From positions 1 to 64,000 of the forward strand of contig JANWJS010000010.1 in the NCBI GenBank assembly GCA_025451845.1: a stretch of 64,000 bases of DNA, written 5' to 3'. Origin of the DNA: Steroidobacteraceae bacterium (GTDB lineage Bacteria; Pseudomonadota; Gammaproteobacteria; Steroidobacterales; Steroidobacteraceae). Both the position numbers and the translations under genes were made by a program. Below, in pieces: positions 14,244 to 32,359 of the stretch. How positions within the stretch are numbered: position 1 is the first letter of the stretch; the number at the start of each line of letters is the position of its first letter. The notes beneath the pieces were generated by a model. That model was not told where the DNA came from. It made no database searches and was given only the letters and a program-made list of their open reading frames with translations.

Positions 14244-15200
14244 TCAGACGCCGAGTGCGTGACGCAGGGCCTCGATCTCGTGTTCCGACTCGTCGATCAG
14301 TTTCTCGTAGCTCGCGCGGTCGATGTGCATTCGCTTGCAGGCGGCGACATCGTGCATGTTGAGCTCGAGGGTGTCGGGATGCTCCTTGAACGCCGCGAGC
14401 AGGTGACCCACGGTCAATGCATCGGTGAGATCCGGAGGACCGCCGTGCTCGCGGGTGAAATCCTCGTATTCGCTGACGGCCGTGATGATCTCCTCGGCCA
14501 TGTCCCAGTTCTCGAGCAACACCTTGGCCACGGGAGCGTGCCAATCGCGGACGACGGAGTTGTACGCCGCCTGGTTCTCGAATAGCGCGGGATGCCTGGT
14601 CGAGCGCGTCAGGATGTAGAGCTTGCCGATGCCGTGCAGCAACCCTGCGAGCATGGCGGTATCGGGATTTACGGGGCTGAAGCGGCGCGCCACAGCATGC
14701 GACATCGCCGCGACCGCCGCGCTGCGCTGCCAGAGGTCATCGAGCGGCTGCTCGAGGCCTTTCAAAGAGTCAACCTTCTTCAATTGCGACATGGCGAACG
14801 CGATGGCGGCGCTGCGCACCATGTTGAATCCCATGCGCGCGATCGCGGTGCGTAGCTCGGTGATCGGCTTGCCGGTGAAATTGATGGCCGCGGAGTTGGC
14901 GATCTGCATGAGACGGGCCGCGAGCGCCGGCTCAGAGCCGATCACGCGTACCACCTTTTCCTGGGAGACTTCCTCGTCGGCGAGCACCTGGCGCACGCGC
15001 ATGGCGATGTGCGGAAAGCTGGGCAGGTCCACCTTGCCTTTCGACAGCTCTGCCGCCAGCGACTGCACGAAAGCGAATGCGTCGGGGTCGCTTACGGCCT
15101 GGGAATTGTCTGCCACGGAGCTCTTCATCACCACGCCCTCATCCTGCGGTATCGGCCCATCCTGGCCTGAATTGAGACCTGCGTCGTCAAATTGGTTCAC
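14244..15200 (-). CDS. HDOD-domain protein 2
   Basis: This 318-residue paralogue of the downstream HDOD protein shares [38 protein letters not shown] and the general layout. It keeps His but not Asp in [11 protein letters not shown]. The GTG at 15200 overlaps the cheB stop as GTGA, a coupling used elsewhere in this cluster. An ATG at 15128 with a GAGGG ribosome site is an alternative start that would remove 24 poorly conserved residues; a sigma-28-like site lies just upstream of it. Confidence 0.85.
15149..15175 (-). promoter_or_regulatory. Possible sigma-28 promoter inside HDOD gene 2
   Basis: The minus strand reads TCAA, 15 bases, GCCGATAC (3 of 4 and 7 of 8 to consensus, exact spacing). 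The predicted transcript start is about 14 bases before an in-frame ATG (15128) with a good ribosome site. A chance match remains possible. Confidence 0.35.
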
Positions 15201-16384
15201 GGATCGTCAGTGCCGCCCAGCGCCTTCTCCTCCCGCGTGATGTCCATCGCGTCCGCCAGCGCGAGGATCTTGTCCGCCACGCTCTCCAAGGCCAAGACGT
15301 GCTCGGCGGCCCCGAGCGTGACGGCTTCGCCGGGCATCCCCCAGACGACGCTGGTCGCCTCGTCCTGCGCGATGGTGCGACTGCCGCAGTCCAGCATCTC
15401 CTTGAGACCGCGGGAGCCGTCCTTGCCCATCCCGGTAAGGATCACGCCGATGGCATTGCGGCCGGCGTTCTGCGCCACGGAGCGGAACAACACATCGACG
15501 GACGGCTTGTGGCGGTTGACCGGCACGCCATCGTCCAGACGGCAGACATACCGGGTGCCATCGCGTACCAGCATCAGGTGACGGTCGCCGGGGGCGACGT
15601 AGGCGTGACCCGCGAGGACGTGCTGACCGTCCTGTGCCTCGCAGACCGACATCGGGCAGCAATCGTTCATGCGCCGTGCGAACGGCGCACTGAATGCCCT
15701 CGGGATGTGCTGCGCGATGACGACACCGGGAGAGTCCGGCGGCAGGCGTATCAGCACTTCCTTGATCGCCTCGGTGCCGCCCGTCGAGGCGCCGATCGCA
15801 ATGACACGGTCGGTCGTGCGCAGCGGCCGGCTGCGCGGCGGCGCTTTGGGAAGCACGGCATCTGCGCTGTGAGCCGGCCCGACGGCGCCGGCAGGCCGAA
15901 GCGGCTGTTTCGGGTCGAGCGCTCGCACGCTGGCGCGGGCGGCAACCCGGATTTTCTCGATGAGCTCGTCCGAATAGTCCTTCAGCGTTGCTGCGAGGTC
16001 GATCTTGGGCTTGGAGAGATAGTCCACGGCACCGAGCGCAAGCGCATCGAGCGTCACATCGGCACCGCGCTCGGTGAGCGAGGAGACCATGACCACCGGC
16101 ATCGGTCGCAGGCGCATCAGGTTGCGCAGAAAGGTGATGCCGTCCATCTTCGGCATCTCGACATCCAGCGTCAGCACGTCCGGGTTGAGCTGCTTGATCT
16201 TCTCGCGCGCGGCATGCGCGTCGGCCGCGGTTCCGACGACCTCAATGCCGTGAGCGGCCCTGAGGATGTCGCTGAGGAGACTTCGCACGAGCGCGGAGTC
16301 GTCTACGATGAGCACGCGGATCGGCCGCTTCGCGGCGGGCACGGCCTTCGATTGCGCGGGGGGAATCATGCTCGTATCTCTCAT
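15197..16384 (-). CDS. cheB: Chemotaxis protein-glutamate methylesterase CheB
   Basis: CheB is a response regulator that removes methyl groups from MCP glutamates. The receiver domain spans about residues 20-140 ([19 protein letters not shown], phospho-Asp in [12 protein letters not shown], Lys in YLSKP). The C-terminal esterase domain has the Ser in [13 protein letters not shown], His in [10 protein letters not shown] and Asp in [12 protein letters not shown]. Length is 395 residues. The ATG at 16384 overlaps the cheD stop as ATGA. It forms a cheR-cheD-cheB subcluster at the far end of the block, about 10 kb from cheA. Confidence 0.97.
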
Positions 16385-17091
16385 TCAAAGAGCTCGACAT
16401 CGCCGCCGGCGGCCTGCTTGCCGAGGCTGGCGAGATAGAGCTGCTCGTGATGGCTGATGATCCGGTTCTCCACTGGACGCAGCTTGCGCAACCGGGCGCG
16501 GCCGCTCCCGGGGAAGTAAACGACCTTGCGCGGCTGAGTGCCGCCGAGGTCCTCGGCCGCGACCTGGTAGCCCTCGAGAGTCATGTAGTTACGGATGAAC
16601 TCGATGTTACGCCCGCCAACATCCGTCATGGCCGCGAGGATCTGCCCGCCGCCGAAGAGCTTGATCTCCAAGCGCTCGCGCGCCGCGCCGAGCTTCAGCA
16701 GGTCGTTGATCAGGCTTTCCATGGCGTAGGAGCCGTAGCGGGTGGCGAGGCCCACCGCCGGGTCGAGCCAGTCGTTCGGGCCCATCGCGGCGTCCTCGGG
16801 CAGCATGAAGTGATTCATGCCGCCGAGACCGCGGGTCGGATCGCGCACGCAAGCGGACACACAGGAGCCGAGAACGGTGGAGATCGCCTCGTCGCTGCGG
16901 CTCACGTAGTACTCGCCGGGGAGAATCTTGACCATCCAGCAGCCGTTCTCACGGTCCCAGAAGCGCTGGAAATGCTCGAAGCCCCGCAACGGCAGCGGCA
17001 GGCCGGACGGACCCTCGGCCGTTGATCCGGCTCCGACCGGAGGCGACGTGGTGTCAGACGCGCCGGTGGATGGTTTTGCCGATGAGGCCAT
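16381..17091 (-). CDS. cheD: Chemoreceptor glutamine deamidase CheD
   Basis: CheD deamidates receptor glutamines. The 236-residue product has the core [15 protein letters not shown] with the nucleophile Cys, and [11 protein letters not shown] with the catalytic His. It ends in [11 protein letters not shown]. The DVELF tail closely resembles the VELF end of an uncharacterised protein encoded just upstream of cheR. The N-terminus overlaps the end of cheR by 38 bases. No cheC is in the window; CheY dephosphorylation here is presumably done by CheZ. Confidence 0.95.
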
Positions 17092-17917
17092 AGCTGTCGC
17101 AAACCTTGAATAGACTCTCCGAATGGCCGAGAAAGAGCAGATCGCCGGGACGCTGCAGCCGGGCGATGCGCGCGAAGAGCTCCCGCTGGGTCCCCTTGTC
17201 GAAGTAAATCACCACGTTGCGGCAGAAGATCGCATCCAACGGTCCTCTCATCGGCAGTGCGTGTATGAGATTGAGCTGCTTGAAGGTGACGAGCGCCGCG
17301 ACTTCCGGCGCGATCTGCAGGCTCGATCCGCCCGTGTCCTGGCGCCCGATGAAGAACCGCTGCAGGCGCTCGGGAGAGATGTTGCCCACCCGCTCCGGAA
17401 GATAGATTCCGCGGCGCGCACGCTCGAGGACCTCCGAGTCGAGGTCCGTGGCGAGGATGCGCACGTCCCAACTACCGGGGTCCGGTAGCGCCTCGAGTAC
17501 CGTCATGGCGATGGAGTACGGCTCTTCACCCGTCGAGCAGCCGGCCGACCAGATGCGGATCCGGCGACGGTCGCGCGGCTTGGCTGCGAGCGGCGCCAGG
17601 ACGTGCTCGCGCAGGTACTGGAAGTGATGCGGCTCGCGAAAGAACGAGGTGAGATTGGTCGTGATTGCGTTGCAGAGCTCCGCGAGCTCCTGCACGTCAC
17701 CATTGAGCCGCTCGCGATACTCGGCGAAGGAGCGCAGCTGCAGCGCGCGCAGACGGCGCGTCAGCCTGCCATAGACGAGCTCCCTCTTCTGGTCCGAGAG
17801 ATGGATGCCGGTGACCGATTTGACGAGCCCCCGCAGCGCCTGGAAGTCCTCCTCGCCGAAGGCGAACTCCCGCAGGCGCAGGGTGGTACTGGTGTCTCGC
17901 GTCGCGGCAGCTTGCAC
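17054..17917 (-). CDS. cheR: Chemotaxis protein methyltransferase CheR
   Basis: CheR methylates MCP glutamates with S-adenosylmethionine. The 287-residue product has the N-terminal helical domain and then the SAM site IWSAGCSTGEEPYSIAM. It continues with LATDLDSEVLERARRGIY and IFCRNVVIYFDKGTQ. Length is normal. It starts 8 bases after the upstream unknown gene and overlaps cheD. Confidence 0.97.
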   Translation of the reverse strand: MQAAATRDTSTTLRLREFAFGEEDFQALRGLVKSVTGIHLSDQKRELVYGRLTRRLRALQLRSFAEYRERLNGDVQELAELCNAITTNLTSFFREPHHFQYLREHVLAPLAAKPRDRRRIRIWSAGCSTGEEPYSIAMTVLEALPDPGSWDVRILATDLDSEVLERARRGIYLPERVGNISPERLQRFFIGRQDTGGSSLQIAPEVAALVTFKQLNLIHALPMRGPLDAIFCRNVVIYFDKGTQRELFARIARLQRPGDLLFLGHSESLFKVCDSYGLIGKTIHRRV

Positions 17918-17925
17918 GGGATTGC

Positions 17926-18396
17926 TCAGAAAAGCTCCACGCTGCCTTCGCTGGCATGGAGAGACGGGGCGTGACTGATGCCGTCCGCGTCCGGCATCAA
18001 CAAGTTAAAGATGATGCGATGTGACTCGGAGGTGAAGCGCGCGCGCAGATTCTCCATGAGCACCGGCCAGCTCTGCCGCCCGCCGGGCGCCGTAGCGGCG
18101 GAGCCGGCGGCGGCCACCGCGGCCAGCAGATCGCGCACCTGCGAGAGCTGTTGCATCATCCGATCATGGAACTGCAGGCATTCCACGCAGACCTCCAGGT
18201 CAAGCGCGGCCGGCGGGCTGCCGGCCGACACCGCCGCGCTGACGCGCGACAGCGCCTCGCCGAGCTCCGTGACGGGCCGCTGCGACTCGCAGAGCGCGAG
18301 CTCGATCAGCGCGGCGGCGGTGGCCGCCGCGCACGCCAGATCGCAGGCGGAGTGAACGGGGCTCGCCGCATGCGAGCTCCGTGCCGGCAGCGACAC
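17926..18396 (-). CDS. Uncharacterised chemotaxis-operon protein with VELF C-terminus
   Basis: No family is recognised. The 156-residue product is mostly Ala-rich helix: an N-terminal segment with several Cys (SACDLACAAATAAALIELAL), a middle helix (DLEVCVECLQFHDRMMQQLS) and a C-terminal part (ARFTSESHRIIFNLLMPDAD). It ends ASEGSVELF. The GTG start at 18396 was chosen because a GAGG ribosome site, overlapping the previous stop codon, sits just upstream; starting further out would overlap the neighbour by 70 bases. The tail matches that of CheD (GDVELFE). An adaptor or docking role in adaptation is inferred from tail and position only. Confidence 0.75.
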   Translation of the reverse strand: MSLPARSSHAASPVHSACDLACAAATAAALIELALCESQRPVTELGEALSRVSAAVSAGSPPAALDLEVCVECLQFHDRMMQQLSQVRDLLAAVAAAGSAATAPGGRQSWPVLMENLRARFTSESHRIIFNLLMPDADGISHAPSLHASEGSVELF

Positions 18397-18403
18397 TTGC
18401 GCC

Positions 18404-18745
18404 TCAGCCGTGCTTCGACTTGAAGCTGCGTACCTGCTCGTTGAACTGGCCGGCGACGTGCGAAAGCTGATCAACCGCCGCGTTGTGCAGGCTCGTCTGG
18501 TCGCCGGGGCTCAACTGGTTCTGACGCGCCTCGAAATCGAGGCACTTGAGATAGGTCTGCACATCGTTGTTGTACTGCTTGATGGTCTCCATGGCCGTGA
18601 TCATCTCCTGCTGGCTGGCCGTGCTGCCGTCGGGAATCTTGCTCGGCGCCGGCGGCAGCCTGCACTGGTCGGCGTGGGCCTGGAGGCTCACGGCGCAGGC
18701 GGCCGACAAAACGGCCAGGGCAAGAATTCGCTTCGGGGACTTCAT
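18404..18745 (-). CDS. Small exported protein of unknown function
   Basis: The 113-residue product has a clear Sec signal peptide (MKSPKRILALAVLSAACAV, cleavage after AHA). The mature part is about 88 residues, begins DQCRLPPAPSKIPDGS and is predicted helical (EMITAMETIKQYNNDVQTYL). It has two Cys that could form a disulphide. It sits between a cheY gene and the VELF gene, transcribed with them. The ATG at 18745 is chosen because it gives the signal peptide. A periplasmic protein inside a chemotaxis operon is unusual; its function is unknown. Confidence 0.8.
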   Translation of the reverse strand: MKSPKRILALAVLSAACAVSLQAHADQCRLPPAPSKIPDGSTASQQEMITAMETIKQYNNDVQTYLKCLDFEARQNQLSPGDQTSLHNAAVDQLSHVAGQFNEQVRSFKSKHG

Positions 18746-18783: not shown

Positions 18784-19146
18784 TCACCCGAGCACCTTGG
18801 CGATGGTCGCGAGCAGCCGCTCGGGGTTGAATGGCTTGACCAGCCAGCCGGTGGCGCCGGCGGCCTTTCCCTGCTGCTTGCGCTCGAGGGTCGCCTCGGT
18901 GGTCAGCACGAGCAGGGGTACGTAGCGGTAGGTTGCGCGGCTGCGCAGCTCGCGCACCAGGGTGATGCCGTCCATCTTCGGCATGTTGACGTCGGTGATG
19001 ACGAGATCGAACTTCTGCCTTTCCGCGATCTCGAGCGCCTCGGCGCCGTCGGCGGCCTGCTGCACGTCGTGGCCCGCACCCGTGAGGGTGATGCCGACCA
19101 TCTGGCGCATCGCCGCCGAGTCGTCTACTGCAAGTATCCGGGCCAT
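18784..19146 (-). CDS. CheY-like single-domain response regulator (second copy)
   Basis: A free receiver domain of 120 residues. It has acidic pocket residues in ILAVDDSAAMRQMV, phospho-Asp in LVITDVNMPKMDGI, Thr in LLVLTTEATLERK and Lys in WLVKPFNPERL. It is more like the CheY of adaptation-type che operons than the copy next to cheZ. It lies 39 bases after mcp gene 1 and could bind the motor, act as a phosphate sink or serve another output. Confidence 0.93.
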   Translation of the reverse strand: MARILAVDDSAAMRQMVGITLTGAGHDVQQAADGAEALEIAERQKFDLVITDVNMPKMDGITLVRELRSRATYRYVPLLVLTTEATLERKQQGKAAGATGWLVKPFNPERLLATIAKVLG

Positions 19147-19185: not shown

Positions 19186-21909
19186 TTAGAACTCCTGCCA
19201 CTCGGAGTCGCCGCCATCGCTGGTGCCCACCGTGCCATTGCCGCGGGTAGCGGCGGCGAGAGGGGGCGCGAGCGCGCGCGCGGGCTCGGCGCTCGGCTTC
19301 TGCTTCGTGGCCTGGGCCGCGCTGCCGCGCGCGGCCCAGGGCCGACTCGATCCGCGGCGCTCCGCTCGCGATGAGCTTGCCGCCTGGGCCTTGCCGCCGG
19401 CCGTCCTCTGGGGCAGGACTCGCGCTGCGGCCGTAGCGGCCGGGCGATCGCTGCCTTGCAGCTCGCCCATCGCAACCTGGAAGCGTCCCAGCATCTCGTT
19501 GAGTCCGCGCACCTGCTCGGCCATTGCCTGCGAGGCGGCGGTGGCTTCCTCCACCAGGGCGGCGTTCTGCTGCGTGAGCTCGTCCATCTGCATGACCGCG
19601 CGGTTCACCTGCTCGATCCCGGAGGACTGTTCGCGCGAGGCGGCGGCGATCTCGGCGACGATGTCGGAGACCTTTTTCACCGAGGCCACGATCTTCTCGA
19701 GCGTCTGGCCGGACTGGGTGACCAGCACCGAGCCGTCCTCGACCTTGCGCACCGAGTCCTGGATCAACTCCTTGATCTCCTTGGCGGCGGTGGCGGAGCG
19801 GCCCGCGAGGCTGCGCACCTCGCTCGCCACCACCGCGAAGCCGCGGCCCTGCTCGCCGGCGCGTGCCGCTTCGACAGCCGCGTTCAGCGCCAGGAGGTTG
19901 GTCTGGAAGGCGATGTCGTCGATTACGCCGATGATGTCCGCGATCTTCTTCGATGCATCGTTGATGCCCGCCATGGCCGCCACCGCATGGCTTACCACGG
20001 TGCCGCCCTTCTCGGCCTGGTCGCGCGCCGCCAGGGCGAGCTGGTTGGCCTGGGCGGCGTTGTCGGCGTTCTGCTTGACGGTAGTGGTCATCTCCTCCAT
20101 GGAGGAAGCGGTCTGCTCCAGCGAGGAGGACTGCTCTTCCGTGCGCTGCGACAGGTTGGCGTTGCCGGCGGAGATCTCGTCGGCGCCGCGGTGAACGTCC
20201 GCCGCGACGCGCTTGACCCTCGAGACCACCTCGGCCATGTTGTCAGCGAGCTGGTTCACGCCGCCGCTCATGGCCTCGAAGAAGCCCGTCTTGCCGGCGA
20301 GACCGATGCGGCTGCCGAGATCGCCCGCGACCACCGCTGCGAGCATCCCCTGCATCTCCTTCTCGACGGCAACCTCCTGGGTGCGGTCGGTCCATTCCAT
20401 CACCGTGCCGATCCGCGCGCCGGCCTCATCGCGCACCGGATTGGTGACGGTGCGGAAGGTGCAGGCACCGAGCTGGCGCTCGGCGTCGCGCGAGCCGGCG
20501 AGTGTGTCGAGCTCGCGCCGCTCGCCGGCCGAGTCGGCCGACAGCGTCTCGAGGCTTGCGCCGCGTACCTTCTGCGCATCGAACCCGGGCAGGCTCATGG
20601 CGATCTCACGTTGGTTGCGCGCGAAGACGGAGCTTGCCGTCTCGTTGAGATAGATGATCCGCTGCTGCGCGTCGGCGAGCACCACCGAGGTCGATACCTT
20701 GTCGAGCGCCTGGCGGATGCGCGCGTTCTCGGCGGCCACCAGCCGCTCGTTCTCGATCTGCGTGCGCAGCTTCCCCTGCATGTCGTCCAAGGCGCGCAGC
20801 ACCAGGCTGGCCTCATCCGAGCCGGCGAGATCCATCGTGTTGTCGTAGTTGCCGGCGGCGATGCGCCCGAACACATCGATCGCCTGTGCGAGCGGCGTGG
20901 CGAGGGATTGGGTGATGAGCCAGGAGAGCGCGAGCGCCACGGCGAGGGCGATGGCCGTCACTCCGGCGGTCAGATTGCGCCAGGTGGTCACCTGCGACAG
21001 GCGCTGCCGCACCGCGACGTCCATCGCGGAGTAGGCGATGTCGGAGAGGCTCTGCAGGCTCGAGCTGATGGTGCGCGAGTCGGCGAAGAGCTCCGCCGTC
21101 GTGATGGTCATCTTTTGGGCGTTGATGATCCGCGACCCGATGATCGAGTAGGAGCTGTCGAACGCACCCTGCGCCGATTCCAGGGCGGGCGCGAGCTTCG
21201 TGCGCGCATCGGCCGGTGCGCCGTTGAGATCACGCGTCGCGGTCGCGAAGTCCCCGACGACCTCGTCGTGGTAGAGATGCAGCGCCATCTGGTCGTCACC
21301 GCCCAGATACCCTTTGATGCTCGCGCGAGTGGCATACCACTGGACGTTACCCGAGGCGATGAGGGCCCCCGGCACGTCGCGGGTGGCGATCTTGATCAGC
21401 GCCGCGGTCTGCGGCGAGGGATCAACGTTGAGCGCCGAGCGCGACACCACCTGGTTGCCGAGCTTGACGATCTTGGCGATGAGGGCGTCGTGCCGGGAGA
21501 CCGCATCATCGGCGGATAACTTCGACTCGCCCGCTTTCAGCTGCTGCCAGTCGTCCTTGATCGCCTGCCAGTCGTTGGCGACGCGCAGCCGCGCGCCGAC
21601 CGTCGAATCGCTCGCGTCGATGTCGGAGATGAGCTTGTCGATCGTCCCTTCGGATTCGGTGAGCTGGTCGCGGCGTGAGCTATCGCCGGTGAGCACCGCG
21701 AAGAGGAGGCTGCGGTGATTGGCGACATCCGCCAGCACTGCGCCGACCTGGTGAGCGTAGCCGGCGCCGCCGAGCTCACTGCGGGCCTGCGCGACTTCGC
21801 TGTTGGCAGCGCTGAGGTAGAAGACTCCGAGCAGTGCCGTCGGCACCGCCATGGCCGCGACCAGGAGGGCGAGTTTCTGCCAGAGCTTCAGACGGTTGAG
21901 AAGTTGCAT
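19186..21909 (-). CDS. Methyl-accepting chemotaxis protein 1, transmembrane, with CheR-docking pentapeptide
   Basis: A 907-residue receptor. TM1 is near residues 10-32 ([20 protein letters not shown]), followed by a helical sensor region to about 330. TM2 ([17 protein letters not shown]) leads into a HAMP domain and a PAS-like segment ([20 protein letters not shown]). A second HAMP-like stretch and the signalling domain follow (hairpin tip [19 protein letters not shown]). After a long Ala/Arg/Ser-rich linker the protein ends SEWQEF, matching the xWxxF tether known to bind CheR and CheB. The start at [13 protein letters not shown] is chosen because upstream codons encode no conserved sequence. 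Confidence 0.95.
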
Positions 21910-21913
21910 GTAA

Positions 21914-24526
21914 TTACCTCGAAACCTCGATCCATTCGCCGCCGCCAGTGCCGCCGGCGCCCAGGGCGCGGCGGTTTTCCGGCCGCGCGCTTCTCTGCGC
22001 GGGCGGGAGAGCATTCCTGACGGCGGCTGCCGCCACCGTGGCGGGTGAGGGCACCGCGGCCGCTGGGGAATCGCCCTGCGCACCGAGGTCGTAACGGGCG
22101 AGCATCTCGTTGAGCTCGCGCACCTGTCCGGTCATGGCCTGCGAGGCGGCGGTGGCCTGCTCGACGAGCGCGGCGTTCTGTTGGGTGAGCTCGTCCATCT
22201 GCACGACCGCGCGGTTGACCTGCTCGATTCCAGAGGACTGCTCGCGCGATGCCGCGGCGATCTCGGCGACGATGTCGGAGACCTTCTTCACGGAGGTGAC
22301 GATCTCACCGAGAGTACGCCCGGACTGAGTCACCAGGCTCGAGCCGTCCTCGACCTTCCTGACACTATCCTCGATCAGGGTCTTGATCTCTTTCGCGGCG
22401 GTCGCGGAACGGCCGGCGAGGCTGCGTACCTCGCTCGCCACCACGGCGAAGCCGCGGCCCTGCTCGCCGGCGCGCGCGGCCTCGACCGCGGCGTTGAGCG
22501 CGAGCAGGTTCGTCTGGAAGGCGATCTCATCGATGACACCGATGATGTCGGCGATCTTCTTGGCCGAGTCGTTGATGCCGGACATCGCATCCACGGCCCT
22601 GCCGACCACGGCGCCGCCCTGCTCGGCCTGATCGCGCGCCGCGACGGCGAGCTGGTTGGCCTGGGCGGCGTTGTCGGCGTTCTGCTTGACGGTCGTGGTC
22701 ATTTCTTCCATGGAGGAGGCTGTCTCCTCCAGCGAGGAAGCCTGCTCCTCGGTGCGCAGCGACAGGTTCGAGTTGCCCGCGGTGATCTCCTCGGCGCCGA
22801 GGGCGATTTCGCGGCCCGCGCTTTTCACTCGCGAAACGATCTCGACCAGGCTCTCGGCCAGGCGATTCACGCCGGCGCCCAACGCCTCGAAAAAACCGGA
22901 CTTGTGGGTGAGATCGATGCGCCGGGTGAGATCTCCGCCGTTCACGGCGGCAAGCACGCCCTGCAGCTCTTCCTCCACCCGCACCTCCTGGGTGCGCTGC
23001 GTCCATTCCATCACCGTGCCGAGGCGCTCGCCGCGCTCGCCGGTCACGCGGTTGGTGACCGTACGGAAGCAGAGCCCGCCCAGGATGCGCTCTTGCACCT
23101 GCTCGGCGGTGAGCGCATCGAGGATCCGCCGCTCGTCCGCGGGGTCTGCGGACAGCGTCGCGAGGCTCGAGCCGCGCAGTCTCGCGGCATCGAAGGCAGG
23201 CAGCGAGCTGCCGATTTCCGCCGCATGGCGCTCGAAGGTCGCCTGGGCGGCATCGTTGAGGTAGATGATCCGATGCTCGGCGTCCGCCAACACCACGCAC
23301 GTGGAGGCTTTGTCGAGCGCGTGCCGGACGCGCGAGTTTTCCGCGGCGACGGCGCGATCGGCCTCGATCTGGGCACGCAGCTTCTCCTGCATCGAGGCAA
23401 GCGCCTGCAGCACCTGGCCGGCCTCGTCATTGCGGCGCGTATGGATCTCGTTGTCGTAGCGGCCCTGAGAGATGCGCTCGAACACGTTGATCGCGCGCGT
23501 CAGCGGCCGCGAGAGGGAGAGCCTCACCAGCCTGGCCAGCAGTAGCGCTGCGCTCAGCGCGAGCAGGGCGAGGAGGGCGGTGATGTCACGGTGCGTGGCA
23601 ACGGATGAAGCGCGCGCAGCGAGCGCCGAGGAGGCGGCGCTCAGGCTGTCCGCGGACAGTTTCTGCAAGGCATGACTTGCCGGGATGCCGGCGTCGTAGA
23701 TTGCTCCGCCGCTGCTCTTCAGGCTCGAGGCATTGATGATCTGCGAATCGATCACGCCGCCGAACTGCCCGAAGGCCTCCTGCGCGGTATCGAAGTCGCT
23801 CTGCAGCGGGGCGCGCATTTGCGGCGGCAGCAGAGCCAGTCCCGCGCGGATCTGCTCGAGCCGCGACAGTACGCGGCTGCGGTAGATCGCGATGCCCATC
23901 TGATCGTCGCCGCCCAGATAGCTCTTGGAAGCGGCATCGACCGCGTAGCGGCGCATGCCGTCGGCCTGGGCCAGCGCCACTGGCGCATACCTGGAGCCGA
24001 TCTCGAGCAGGATGCGGGCCGTCTGATCGGGATCCGAAGCGCTCCTCGAGCCCGCCGCGACGGCCGCGGTGAGCTGATCCAAACGATCGATCAGCGCGGC
24101 ATTGGCGTCGGCGATCTGCGCGGCGGACTGGCCGAGAGCTGCCGCGGCCTCCACGCTCCACTGCGCGTGCAGTGTGGCGACGTCGTCCTTGACCCCGTAG
24201 CGCTCGCCCAGCTGGGAAGTCACGTCCTCGAGGTGGCTCATGGCCGCGTCGACGTCGTGCTGTTTCGCCAGCACGGCGTCATGGCGTGCCTTGTCTCCGC
24301 TCGCGAAGACGAACGCGCGGGCGCCGTGCGCCAGCAGATTCGACTCGAGTGCGCCTATGGCCTCGAGGAAGCGGACTCCCTGCAGCTCCTCGCGCGCCTG
24401 GCCCAGCTCACCGCCCATGGCGGTGAAGTAAAAGAACCCGACCAGCACCGCCGGCGCGAACATCGCCAGGACGATCGCTCCGAGCTTCTGCCAGAGATTC
24501 AGACGGTTGAGCGCCAATTTTTTCAT
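21914..24526 (-). CDS. Methyl-accepting chemotaxis protein 2, transmembrane
   Basis: An 870-residue paralogue of MCP 1 with the same layout. TM1 is [18 protein letters not shown]; a helical sensor region follows, then TM2 ([17 protein letters not shown]), HAMP, a PAS-like segment ([18 protein letters not shown]) and a signalling domain with tip [19 protein letters not shown]. The C-terminus [10 protein letters not shown] looks like a degenerate xWxxF tether that no longer ends the chain. It lies 4 bases upstream of mcp gene 1 and 9 bases after mcp gene 3, so the three are co-transcribed. Confidence 0.94.
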
Positions 24527-31203: not shown

Positions 31204-31968
31204 TTACATGCCAAGGCCCGACAGGAGCTCATCCACGTCTGTCTGGCCTGTGGCGACATCTCCCCGAGTCACGCCGGGCACGACCGGTCCGTGGCCCTTG
31301 TCCGGGTCCTCGCCGAGCGTGGTGTGCTCGACGATATCTCCTGAAAGCTTGGTGAGGCTCGCCAGGGCTTCCTCCAGCTCTTCGACGAGCTTGATGACGC
31401 TGCGAATGATCTGGCCGGTCAGGTCCTGGTAACCCTGCGCGAGCAGCACGTCGGCGAGGTTCTTGCGGATCTGATCCGAGTCGGTGCGCACAGCGGGCAG
31501 GAACGCCTCGACCGCGCGCACCACCGGAAGGAAGGCATCGATCGAGCGGACCGCGGCCTCGAAGCCGGTGCCGCTCGACGGACGCTCGCGGTAGGCCTTC
31601 AGCGAGGTGATGAGGGCGCCCGCCTCGCGGGCGGTGCGCTCGGCGAGCGGCCCCGACTGCTCGACGAGATCGAGTGTGCGGTGCGCGGCCTCGTCGGTCA
31701 TCCTGATGACGTGCGCCAGACGGGTTCTCGCATCCGGAATCTCGTTCTCGGCGATATCCGCGAGGCGCGACTCGATGCCGAAACGCTCGAGCGCCTTTTG
31801 CAAGTCGCCGGTCAGCCTGCGGATCTCGGTGAGCGTTTGCGGCTCGCGCATGCGCACGATGTGATCGATGGCGGTGAAGAAGGCCGCCTCGTCCTCGCCC
31901 CGCAATGCCTCCGACAGGGCATCGACGCAGGCGCCGTATTCAACTTTCAAAACTTGGAAGTTCGACAT
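31204..31968 (-). CDS. cheZ: CheY-phosphate phosphatase CheZ
   Basis: CheZ dephosphorylates CheY. The 254-residue product is a long helical hairpin with the catalytic segment AQGYQDLTGQIIRSVIKLVE, containing the Asp and Gln of the QDLTGQ motif. The C-terminal CheY-binding tail DVDELLSGLGM is intact. It lies directly after cheY, as in E. coli and Pseudomonas. Confidence 0.96.
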   Translation of the reverse strand: MSNFQVLKVEYGACVDALSEALRGEDEAAFFTAIDHIVRMREPQTLTEIRRLTGDLQKALERFGIESRLADIAENEIPDARTRLAHVIRMTDEAAHRTLDLVEQSGPLAERTAREAGALITSLKAYRERPSSGTGFEAAVRSIDAFLPVVRAVEAFLPAVRTDSDQIRKNLADVLLAQGYQDLTGQIIRSVIKLVEELEEALASLTKLSGDIVEHTTLGEDPDKGHGPVVPGVTRGDVATGQTDVDELLSGLGM

Positions 31969-31975
31969 GGCGGTT

Positions 31976-32359
31976 TCACTTTCCCGGGCCGAGGATCTTG
32001 TCGAGCTTCTCTTTGAGAGTCTCGGCGGTGAACGGTTTGATGACGTAGCCGTTCACGCCCGCCTGTGCCGCCTCGATGATCTGCTCGCGCTTCGCTTCCG
32101 CGGTCAGCATGAGGACGGGCATCTTGGCGAGCTTGGCATCGGCGCGTACGGCCTTGATGAGCTCGAGGCCCGGCATGCCGGGCATGTTCCAGTCGGTGAT
32201 GAGGATGTCGAAGCCGCCCGCTTGCAGCATGGGCAACGCCGTCTTGCCGTCGTCGGCCTCGGCCACGTTGGGGTAGCCGAGATCGTGCAGCAGGTTCTTG
32301 ATGATGCGCCGCATGGTCGAGAAATCGTCGACCACCAGGAATTTCAGATCTTTGCTCAC
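31976..32359 (-). CDS. cheY: Chemotaxis response regulator CheY (motor-binding copy)
   Basis: Phospho-CheY binds FliM and reverses the motor. The 127-residue receiver has Asp residues in [18 protein letters not shown], phospho-Asp in [17 protein letters not shown], Thr in [12 protein letters not shown] and Lys in [11 protein letters not shown]. It starts with GTG overlapping the fliA stop as GTGA. Sequence and adjacency to cheZ make it the canonical CheY of the two copies. Confidence 0.97.

Follow-up and report, generated by a model that had tools for sequence, protein, structure and literature searches.

A C-terminal tail shared by CheD, McpA-like receptors and a stand-alone DxxxQ protein family linked to chemotaxis

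CheD is a receptor deamidase. In Escherichia coli, CheZ uses the active-site residues D143 and Q147, and both the N-terminus of FliM and the C-terminus of CheZ bind CheY. Among chemoreceptors, the McpA-like type is represented by Pseudomonas aeruginosa PA0180/CttP and Vibrio cholerae VCA1088 (Ortega et al. 2020, PMC7184735). That article calls the McpA C-terminus conserved and important, with an unclear role, and reports that of four CheRs not one is bound by the P. aeruginosa McpA tail, whose second position is valine (PMC7184735, citing its reference 31); it also states that in the stage 1 and 2 organisms F7 clusters have cheY, and that cheZ occurs only in F6 systems (PMC7184735). The che1 locus of Shewanella oneidensis MR-1 is described with SO_2117 and CheD1 (PMC9855816). 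Here we analyse a stretch of 64,000 nucleotides (the window) from the Steroidobacteraceae bacterium assembly GCA_025451845.1 (contig JANWJS010000010.1, positions 1 to 64,000), which contains a chemotaxis operon with a cheR-cheD-cheB segment. A gene in this operon (the VELF gene) encodes a small protein, the VELF protein, and its last residues recur at the C-terminus of CheD.

The initial annotation had proposed that the VELF protein and CheD share a tail on otherwise unrelated bodies. The tails are indeed alike (EGSVELF versus GGDVELFE, both frames being open in the sequence), with the correction that in CheD one residue follows the F, and the bodies are unrelated (best BLASTP E value 0.74). 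The neighbouring methyl-accepting chemotaxis protein (MCP, 19186-22083) ends in EWQEF, again as described. We aligned 31 sequences, namely the window protein and 30 relatives (27-86% identical to it) out of 32 obtained in a scan of genome contigs, the partial L050 and L054 being omitted. The E-L-F residues are aligned and invariant in 31/31, and the likeness of the two tails is therefore more than the chance match that was considered and is ruled out. One relative (row L066) carries eight further residues after ELF. Averaged over columns, the frequency of the top residue is 0.89 in the last seven residues, 0.58 to 0.69 in the helices and 0.42 in the linker (134-149), and the invariant positions are M1, L30, Q75, F76, H77, D78, R79, Q82, E154, L155 and F156. 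The tail is retained even where the region between hairpin and tail is largely lost (DESSIELF in L029, EGTIELF in L030), and at the position equivalent to the start of the VELF gene the relatives have ATG or GTG. Across the genome (the assembly is 97% complete), a DNA pattern encoding [VIM]E[LF]F with TRR as the next codon occurs at 4 places: two have TGG, which is not a stop, one lies between genes read as ribosomal and the fourth is the VELF protein, the sole real protein end of that form, CheD falling outside the pattern owing to its extra residue.

The tail observation is thus confirmed, and it is wider than first noted, extending to three protein types: CheD, stand-alone relatives of the VELF protein and McpA-like receptors. 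Seventy-four of 90 gammaproteobacterial CheDs examined, part of a longer match list, carry [VIA][ED]LF at their end, with no more than two residues after it. In the neighbourhood loci (counted without the canonical CheZ L331 and the duplicate of G419, and with L049, a stand-alone protein with a long frame, moved out of the McpA class), the non-aromatic tail form is found in 26/26 McpA-like proteins, 64/69 stand-alone proteins, 48/65 CheDs and 0/62 ordinary MCPs. The aromatic CheR-tether form, defined as x-[HFYW]-x2-[HFYW] at the C-terminus, a pattern that neither the VELF protein nor CheD fits, occurs in the same loci in 43/62 ordinary MCPs, 1/69 stand-alone proteins, 0/26 McpA-like proteins and 0/65 CheDs, or 1/160 when the last three types are pooled. 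The non-aromatic pattern is a loose one, its variable place also taking A, S, C, P and M; with V, I or L strictly required, the counts are 60/69 stand-alone, 26/26 McpA-like and 45/65 CheD. One set of CheD loci was selected mainly for tail-less CheD, and without that set the tail is present in 47/52 CheDs. In a few operons the tail class has changed on both proteins at once (EEITFF with CheD ADITFF in L212, QITFLD with DIYFFD in L211, ELVFF with MKFFD in L122), for which shared operon ancestry is a possible cause; in other operons of this kind (L213, L215, L336 and L337) CheD has no tail.

The VELF protein appears to be a member of an overlooked chemotaxis family. Neither it nor the stand-alone relatives scanned reached the cut-off of any Pfam or NCBIfam model; in particular, it matches neither CheZ (PF04344, at the Pfam gathering score) nor the CheC/CheX phosphatases (PF04509, PF13690), and the MCP signalling domain PF00015 is absent. 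A match to the protein is present in 38/119 close genomes, and among 369 Gammaproteobacteria matches were obtained in 60 with a profile of near relatives (A1, E<=0.01) and in 81 with a profile of diverse members including the window protein (A3, E<=0.001). The stand-alone form was counted in 43 genomes, a selection of our own (E below 1e-15 and a frame under 320 residues; G417 and G432 are partial matches), and other matching genomes hold only a protein of about 400 residues. Only Q102, D105, Q109 and the terminal F187 (numbering of the first row) are invariant among 24 diverse members, one of which, derived from L098, has 13 further residues after the aligned F; D and Q remain invariant even where a member is only 18% identical to the first row. 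In spacing, the DxxxQ of the family agrees with the CheZ active site (the CheZs compared read FQDLTGQ). Beyond Gammaproteobacteria, in the same phylum, L248 (EDSIDLF) and L249 (NEVDLF) retain both DxxxQ and the tail. In another class of the phylum, frames of about 1100-1250 residues (L254, L256, L258 and others) match the profile only around the DxxxQ helix.

The genomic distribution agrees with the suggestion, made when the gene was first noticed, that its product belongs to the chemotaxis machinery: in addition to the conserved tail, CheD is encoded in 39/43 genomes with a stand-alone relative versus 121/369 overall (Fisher p 4e-17, only indicative because the genomes are related and their kinship is ignored). 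Three stand-alone relatives (L100, L101, L121) sit in a CheA-CheW-MCP-(STAS-like)-VELF-CheR-CheD-CheB operon, and L111 likewise without a scored STAS; others are solitary, three of them (L112, L118, L119) within 0.8 kb of a gene read as cheV. Orthologues outside chemotaxis operons, which by the initial annotation would refute its proposal, do exist: 25 of 40 short-type rows (a set that includes the canonical CheZ L331 and genome G419 twice) lie more than 300 bp from any of the scored che genes. Since most such genomes still carry CheD, that rule is too strict and we do not consider the link refuted; what these rows rule out is a role of the tail confined to the CheD operon. A Steroidobacteraceae record (L061:4966-6483) has cheY flanked by two VELF proteins, beside canonical cheZ-motA-motB.

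The DxxxQ module recurs as the C-terminal part of receptors of about 400 residues encoded in che operons, which appear to be of the McpA-like class by size, MCP domain (in 3/3 proteins of this type scanned), operon place and tail, an assignment made without comparison to a PA0180 sequence. Their DxxxQ site reads, for example, LQFEDMTNQLI or LQFQDRVSQIL, and Q, F, D, Q and F are invariant in the 18 McpA C-termini aligned, out of a total of 23. Profile comparison of the stand-alone family (A3) with the McpA module by hhalign gave a probability of 98.6% (E 1.4e-15), which firmly indicates that the two are related. Relatedness of the McpA module to CheZ has moderate support. The hhalign comparison scored 36.5 (probability 65%); none of 60 heptad-shuffled controls exceeded 26.5, and reversed ones scored about 20. 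A hidden Markov model (HMM) of the McpA module, run with default filters against 773 open reading frames (ORFs) of 30 loci, matched 30/30 CheZs and no other ORF, with 27/30 at E<=0.01, the weakest at 0.049 and the DxxxQ in register in 30/30; unfiltered, it found one non-CheZ ORF at 2.6e-4, and 30 heptad shuffles of the query reached at most 4/30 CheZs. Conversely, a CheZ HMM run against 5864 ORFs found five CheZs and then only four McpA-like proteins (E 0.0014-0.022), and 2/3 whole McpA-like proteins scanned gave a sub-cut-off Pfam CheZ match (E 0.00057 and 0.0071).

From 31 sequences AlphaFold2 predicted a structure of the VELF protein with a mean predicted local distance difference test (pLDDT) of 74.4 and a predicted template modelling score (pTM) of 0.53. 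Helices 13-57 and 64-100 form a confident hairpin (block pLDDT 83-98 over residues 21-90) and are followed by short helices at 110-120 and 124-133; residues 1-14 and 139-155, the latter in the linker and tail, are below 50 and thus of low confidence. D78xxxQ82 falls inside the predicted long helix 64-100. The modelled layout matches the expectation for a hairpin whose docking tail is loose. For comparison, CheZ is a four-helix-bundle dimer; the VELF model covers a monomer with a hairpin.

These data suggest, with about an even chance of being right, that the VELF protein is a CheZ-like phosphatase of phosphorylated CheY (CheY-P) whose tail docks on CheY at a site common with CheD; catalysis, CheY as the partner and competition with CheD are all what we infer from the comparisons above. 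The DxxxQ pair on the helical hairpin would reach into the CheY-P active site and so accelerate the loss of its phosphoryl group. Beyond a flexible linker, the C-terminal [VI]-E-L-F tail would dock on CheY, as the CheZ C-terminal peptide does. That docking site would also serve CheD, which would thereby sense CheY-P or compete for it, and the McpA-like receptors, which would carry a built-in CheZ-like module to the array. A DxxxQ module implies contact with a receiver, and two other protein ends of the window look like the tails, the N-terminus of FliM (DQAEIDALI) and the C-terminus of CheZ (DVDELL). McpA-type genes adjoin a CheY gene in 16/26 cases, and 10/43 stand-alone genomes have no CheZ match, nine of these ten being also without CheC and CheX matches. 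Also in favour, CheD is tail-less in 4/4 clusters where cheZ lies within about 5 kb of cheD (G287, G388 and G363 twice), and cheZ is reported from F6 systems only, F7 clusters of stage 1 and 2 organisms having cheY (PMC7184735).

A series of results weighs against this proposal. With nine motif columns masked, the McpA-module HMM reached only 6/30 CheZs at E<=0.01, and convergence on the motif is therefore possible. Matches of the McpA C-termini to Pfam CheZ (7/18, best 5.7e-5) stay under the gathering score, and unrelated coiled-coil Pfam families score like CheZ for this part of the protein. On its own, the stand-alone family gave a non-significant hhalign score of 8.9 against CheZ and no CheZ matches in a profile search of ORFs, CheZ was not among the 25 Pfam families listed for 24 stand-alone members, and stand-alone and McpA rows combined scored 26.6 against CheZ, no improvement on the highest-scoring shuffles in the McpA comparison. 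In profile searches of the PDB the top ranks went to coiled coils, designed helical bundles among them, and CheZ (1kmi) is not significant (E 0.56), and Foldseek with the VELF model returned 185 PDB matches, none at E<=0.001 and with no CheZ among the 50 listed. Gene content points the same way: 33/43 genomes with a stand-alone relative have a CheZ match, and the genome of the window encodes CheZ plus a CheX match. So do the neighbourhoods, in which short-type genes adjoin cheR in 10/40 rows and cheY in 4/40 (within 300 bp), and McpA-type genes adjoin cheB in 7/26. The four tail-less CheDs close to cheZ were examined for the very reason that they lacked the tail; at 10.5 kb, the next distance, CheD is tailed (G290), and pairs at 12-20 kb are mixed, G403 and G340 being tail-less and the others tailed, all distances coming from same-contig pairs picked by eye.

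The cheR and cheB neighbours, and the position of the VELF gene directly upstream of cheR, would suit a tail that is simply a variant of the xWxxF pentapeptide, by which CheD, McpA-like receptors and the VELF protein would all be tethered to CheR or CheB; EWEEF and EVELF are also alike by position, with E and the final F in both. We consider this unlikely: aromatic and other tails are almost exclusive within the same loci, and none of four CheRs is reported to bind the valine form of P. aeruginosa McpA, a statement that does not extend to CheB (PMC7184735). The initial annotation had envisaged a shared docking site on CheR, CheB or a CheY. For these same two reasons CheR is the less supported partner. 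CheB is a possible one, and CheY is favoured on indirect evidence.

A second alternative retains the shared site and removes the catalysis: the VELF protein would be a non-catalytic competitor or adaptor that occupies a site needed by CheD, with the DxxxQ serving for binding only. It would account for the identity of the tail with that of CheD and for the presence of CheD in nearly all stand-alone genomes, and in Bacillus subtilis CheD is under the control of CheC and CheY-P (PMC3513319). Yet the invariance of D and Q at such low identity suits catalysis better than mere packing, and in three operons (L332, L336, L337) the DxxxQ protein bears the tail and CheD none, so that we regard this alternative as improbable. 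At L332 (7866-8339) a 158-residue frame with the tail GSVELF lies directly upstream of cheY; it has no family match above cut-off, and the CheD there is tail-less.

CheD bears its tail in 21/24 genomes with a stand-alone relative, in 17/22 with the McpA type only and in 36/44 in which neither was detected. These similar rates indicate that the CheD tail is independent of the VELF protein, and the grouping goes against a direct CheD-VELF pairing. The last group has a further bearing: tailed CheDs in genomes where no DxxxQ relative was detected suggest that the partner would be a general component, as would a tail found on three very different proteins, including relatives far from che operons. 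The tail might then be a localisation or assembly tag whose partner is a different shared component, be it CheA, CheW, a polar hub or an unknown protein. By itself this account leaves unexplained both the CheZ-like DxxxQ and the many McpA-type genes that adjoin a CheY gene, and we think it rather unlikely.

The features of the locus are collected in Table 1. On the minus strand the genes follow each other in the order mcp, cheY, a small protein gene (18404-18745), the VELF gene, cheR, cheD and cheB, and from gene order and receptor tails the chemosensory system appears to be F7-like. The small protein, of 113 residues, has a conserved end of FKSKHG type and, in our reading, a signal-like N-terminus; it has no Pfam match above cut-off, and a relative is present in 25/31 loci of the genome-contig scan. 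A second MCP of the operon (21914-24526, minus strand) has a pentapeptide-like site near its end, followed by extra residues. A further CheY, linked to CheZ, is encoded at 31976-32359. The CheX match of the genome lies outside the window (G000:C35:10124-10399, E 7.2e-19).

Table 1. Coordinates, within the window, of the VELF gene and of other features of the chemotaxis locus.
Feature	Coordinates	Strand	Details and basis
VELF protein gene	17926..18396	minus	156 residues; GTG start at 18396, stop 17926-17928; end ...SEGSVELF
Core motif LQFHDRMMQQ, residues 74-83 including D78xxxQ82	18148..18177	minus	Alignments
C-terminal tail EGSVELF of VELF protein	17929..17949	minus	Alignments
CheD	16381..17091	minus	PF03975, E 2.1e-26; 236 residues, end ...GGDVELFE
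VELF tail of CheD, then one Glu and stop	16387..16398	minus	Translation
CheR, adjoining gene downstream of VELF gene	17054..17917	minus	ORF and domain scan
CheB, receiver and methylesterase domains	15197..16384	minus	ORF and domain scan
CheY-type single receiver	18784..19146	minus	ORF and domain scan; putative tail partner
MCP, aromatic pentapeptide end EWQEF (other tail type of the operon)	19186..22083	minus	ORF
Canonical CheZ, for comparison	31204..31968	minus	PF04344, E 1.6e-48; ...QGYQDLTGQII..., end TDVDELLSGLGM

More speculatively, and with rather less confidence than for the VELF protein itself, it is tempting to extend this reading to CheD-containing Pseudomonadota at large: a second docking code, acidic-[VI]-[ED]-[LF]-F, distinct from the CheR pentapeptide, would bring CheD and CheZ-like phosphatases, either free or fused to McpA-like receptors, to one common face of CheY. 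The family might then be the missing CheY phosphatase of F7 systems, which would explain both the conserved McpA tail and a feedback on CheD in bacteria without CheC. The proposal joins the unclear McpA C-terminus and the cheZ-less F7 systems to CheD and to a protein family lacking a model, and it could also show what controls CheD in bacteria that have no CheC. Among the listed titles and abstract starts of open-access papers, we found no description of a shared CheD tail or of a CheZ-like module in McpA, and the tail letters led to one plant paper, which is unrelated.

Compared with the systems described, the VELF protein resembles CheZ (PF04344) in having a DxxxQ in a long helix, a predicted hairpin, a linker and an acidic-hydrophobic C-terminal peptide that ends in F (30/30 CheZ tails in the compared loci end in GF). 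It differs from CheZ in that it falls below every Pfam threshold, is shorter, has another tail consensus and is encoded in a CheR-CheD-CheB operon or as a solitary gene. With the McpA-like receptors it has the C-terminal module and the tail type in common, but not the MCP signalling domain, and with CheD (PF03975) it has in common the [VI][ED]LF tail on an unrelated body. Like the xWxxF pentapeptide of receptors, the VELF tail is C-terminal, acidic, five residues long and closed by F; unlike it, the VELF-type tail has V, I or a similar residue in place of the aromatic one, and the two are distributed almost exclusively of each other within the loci.

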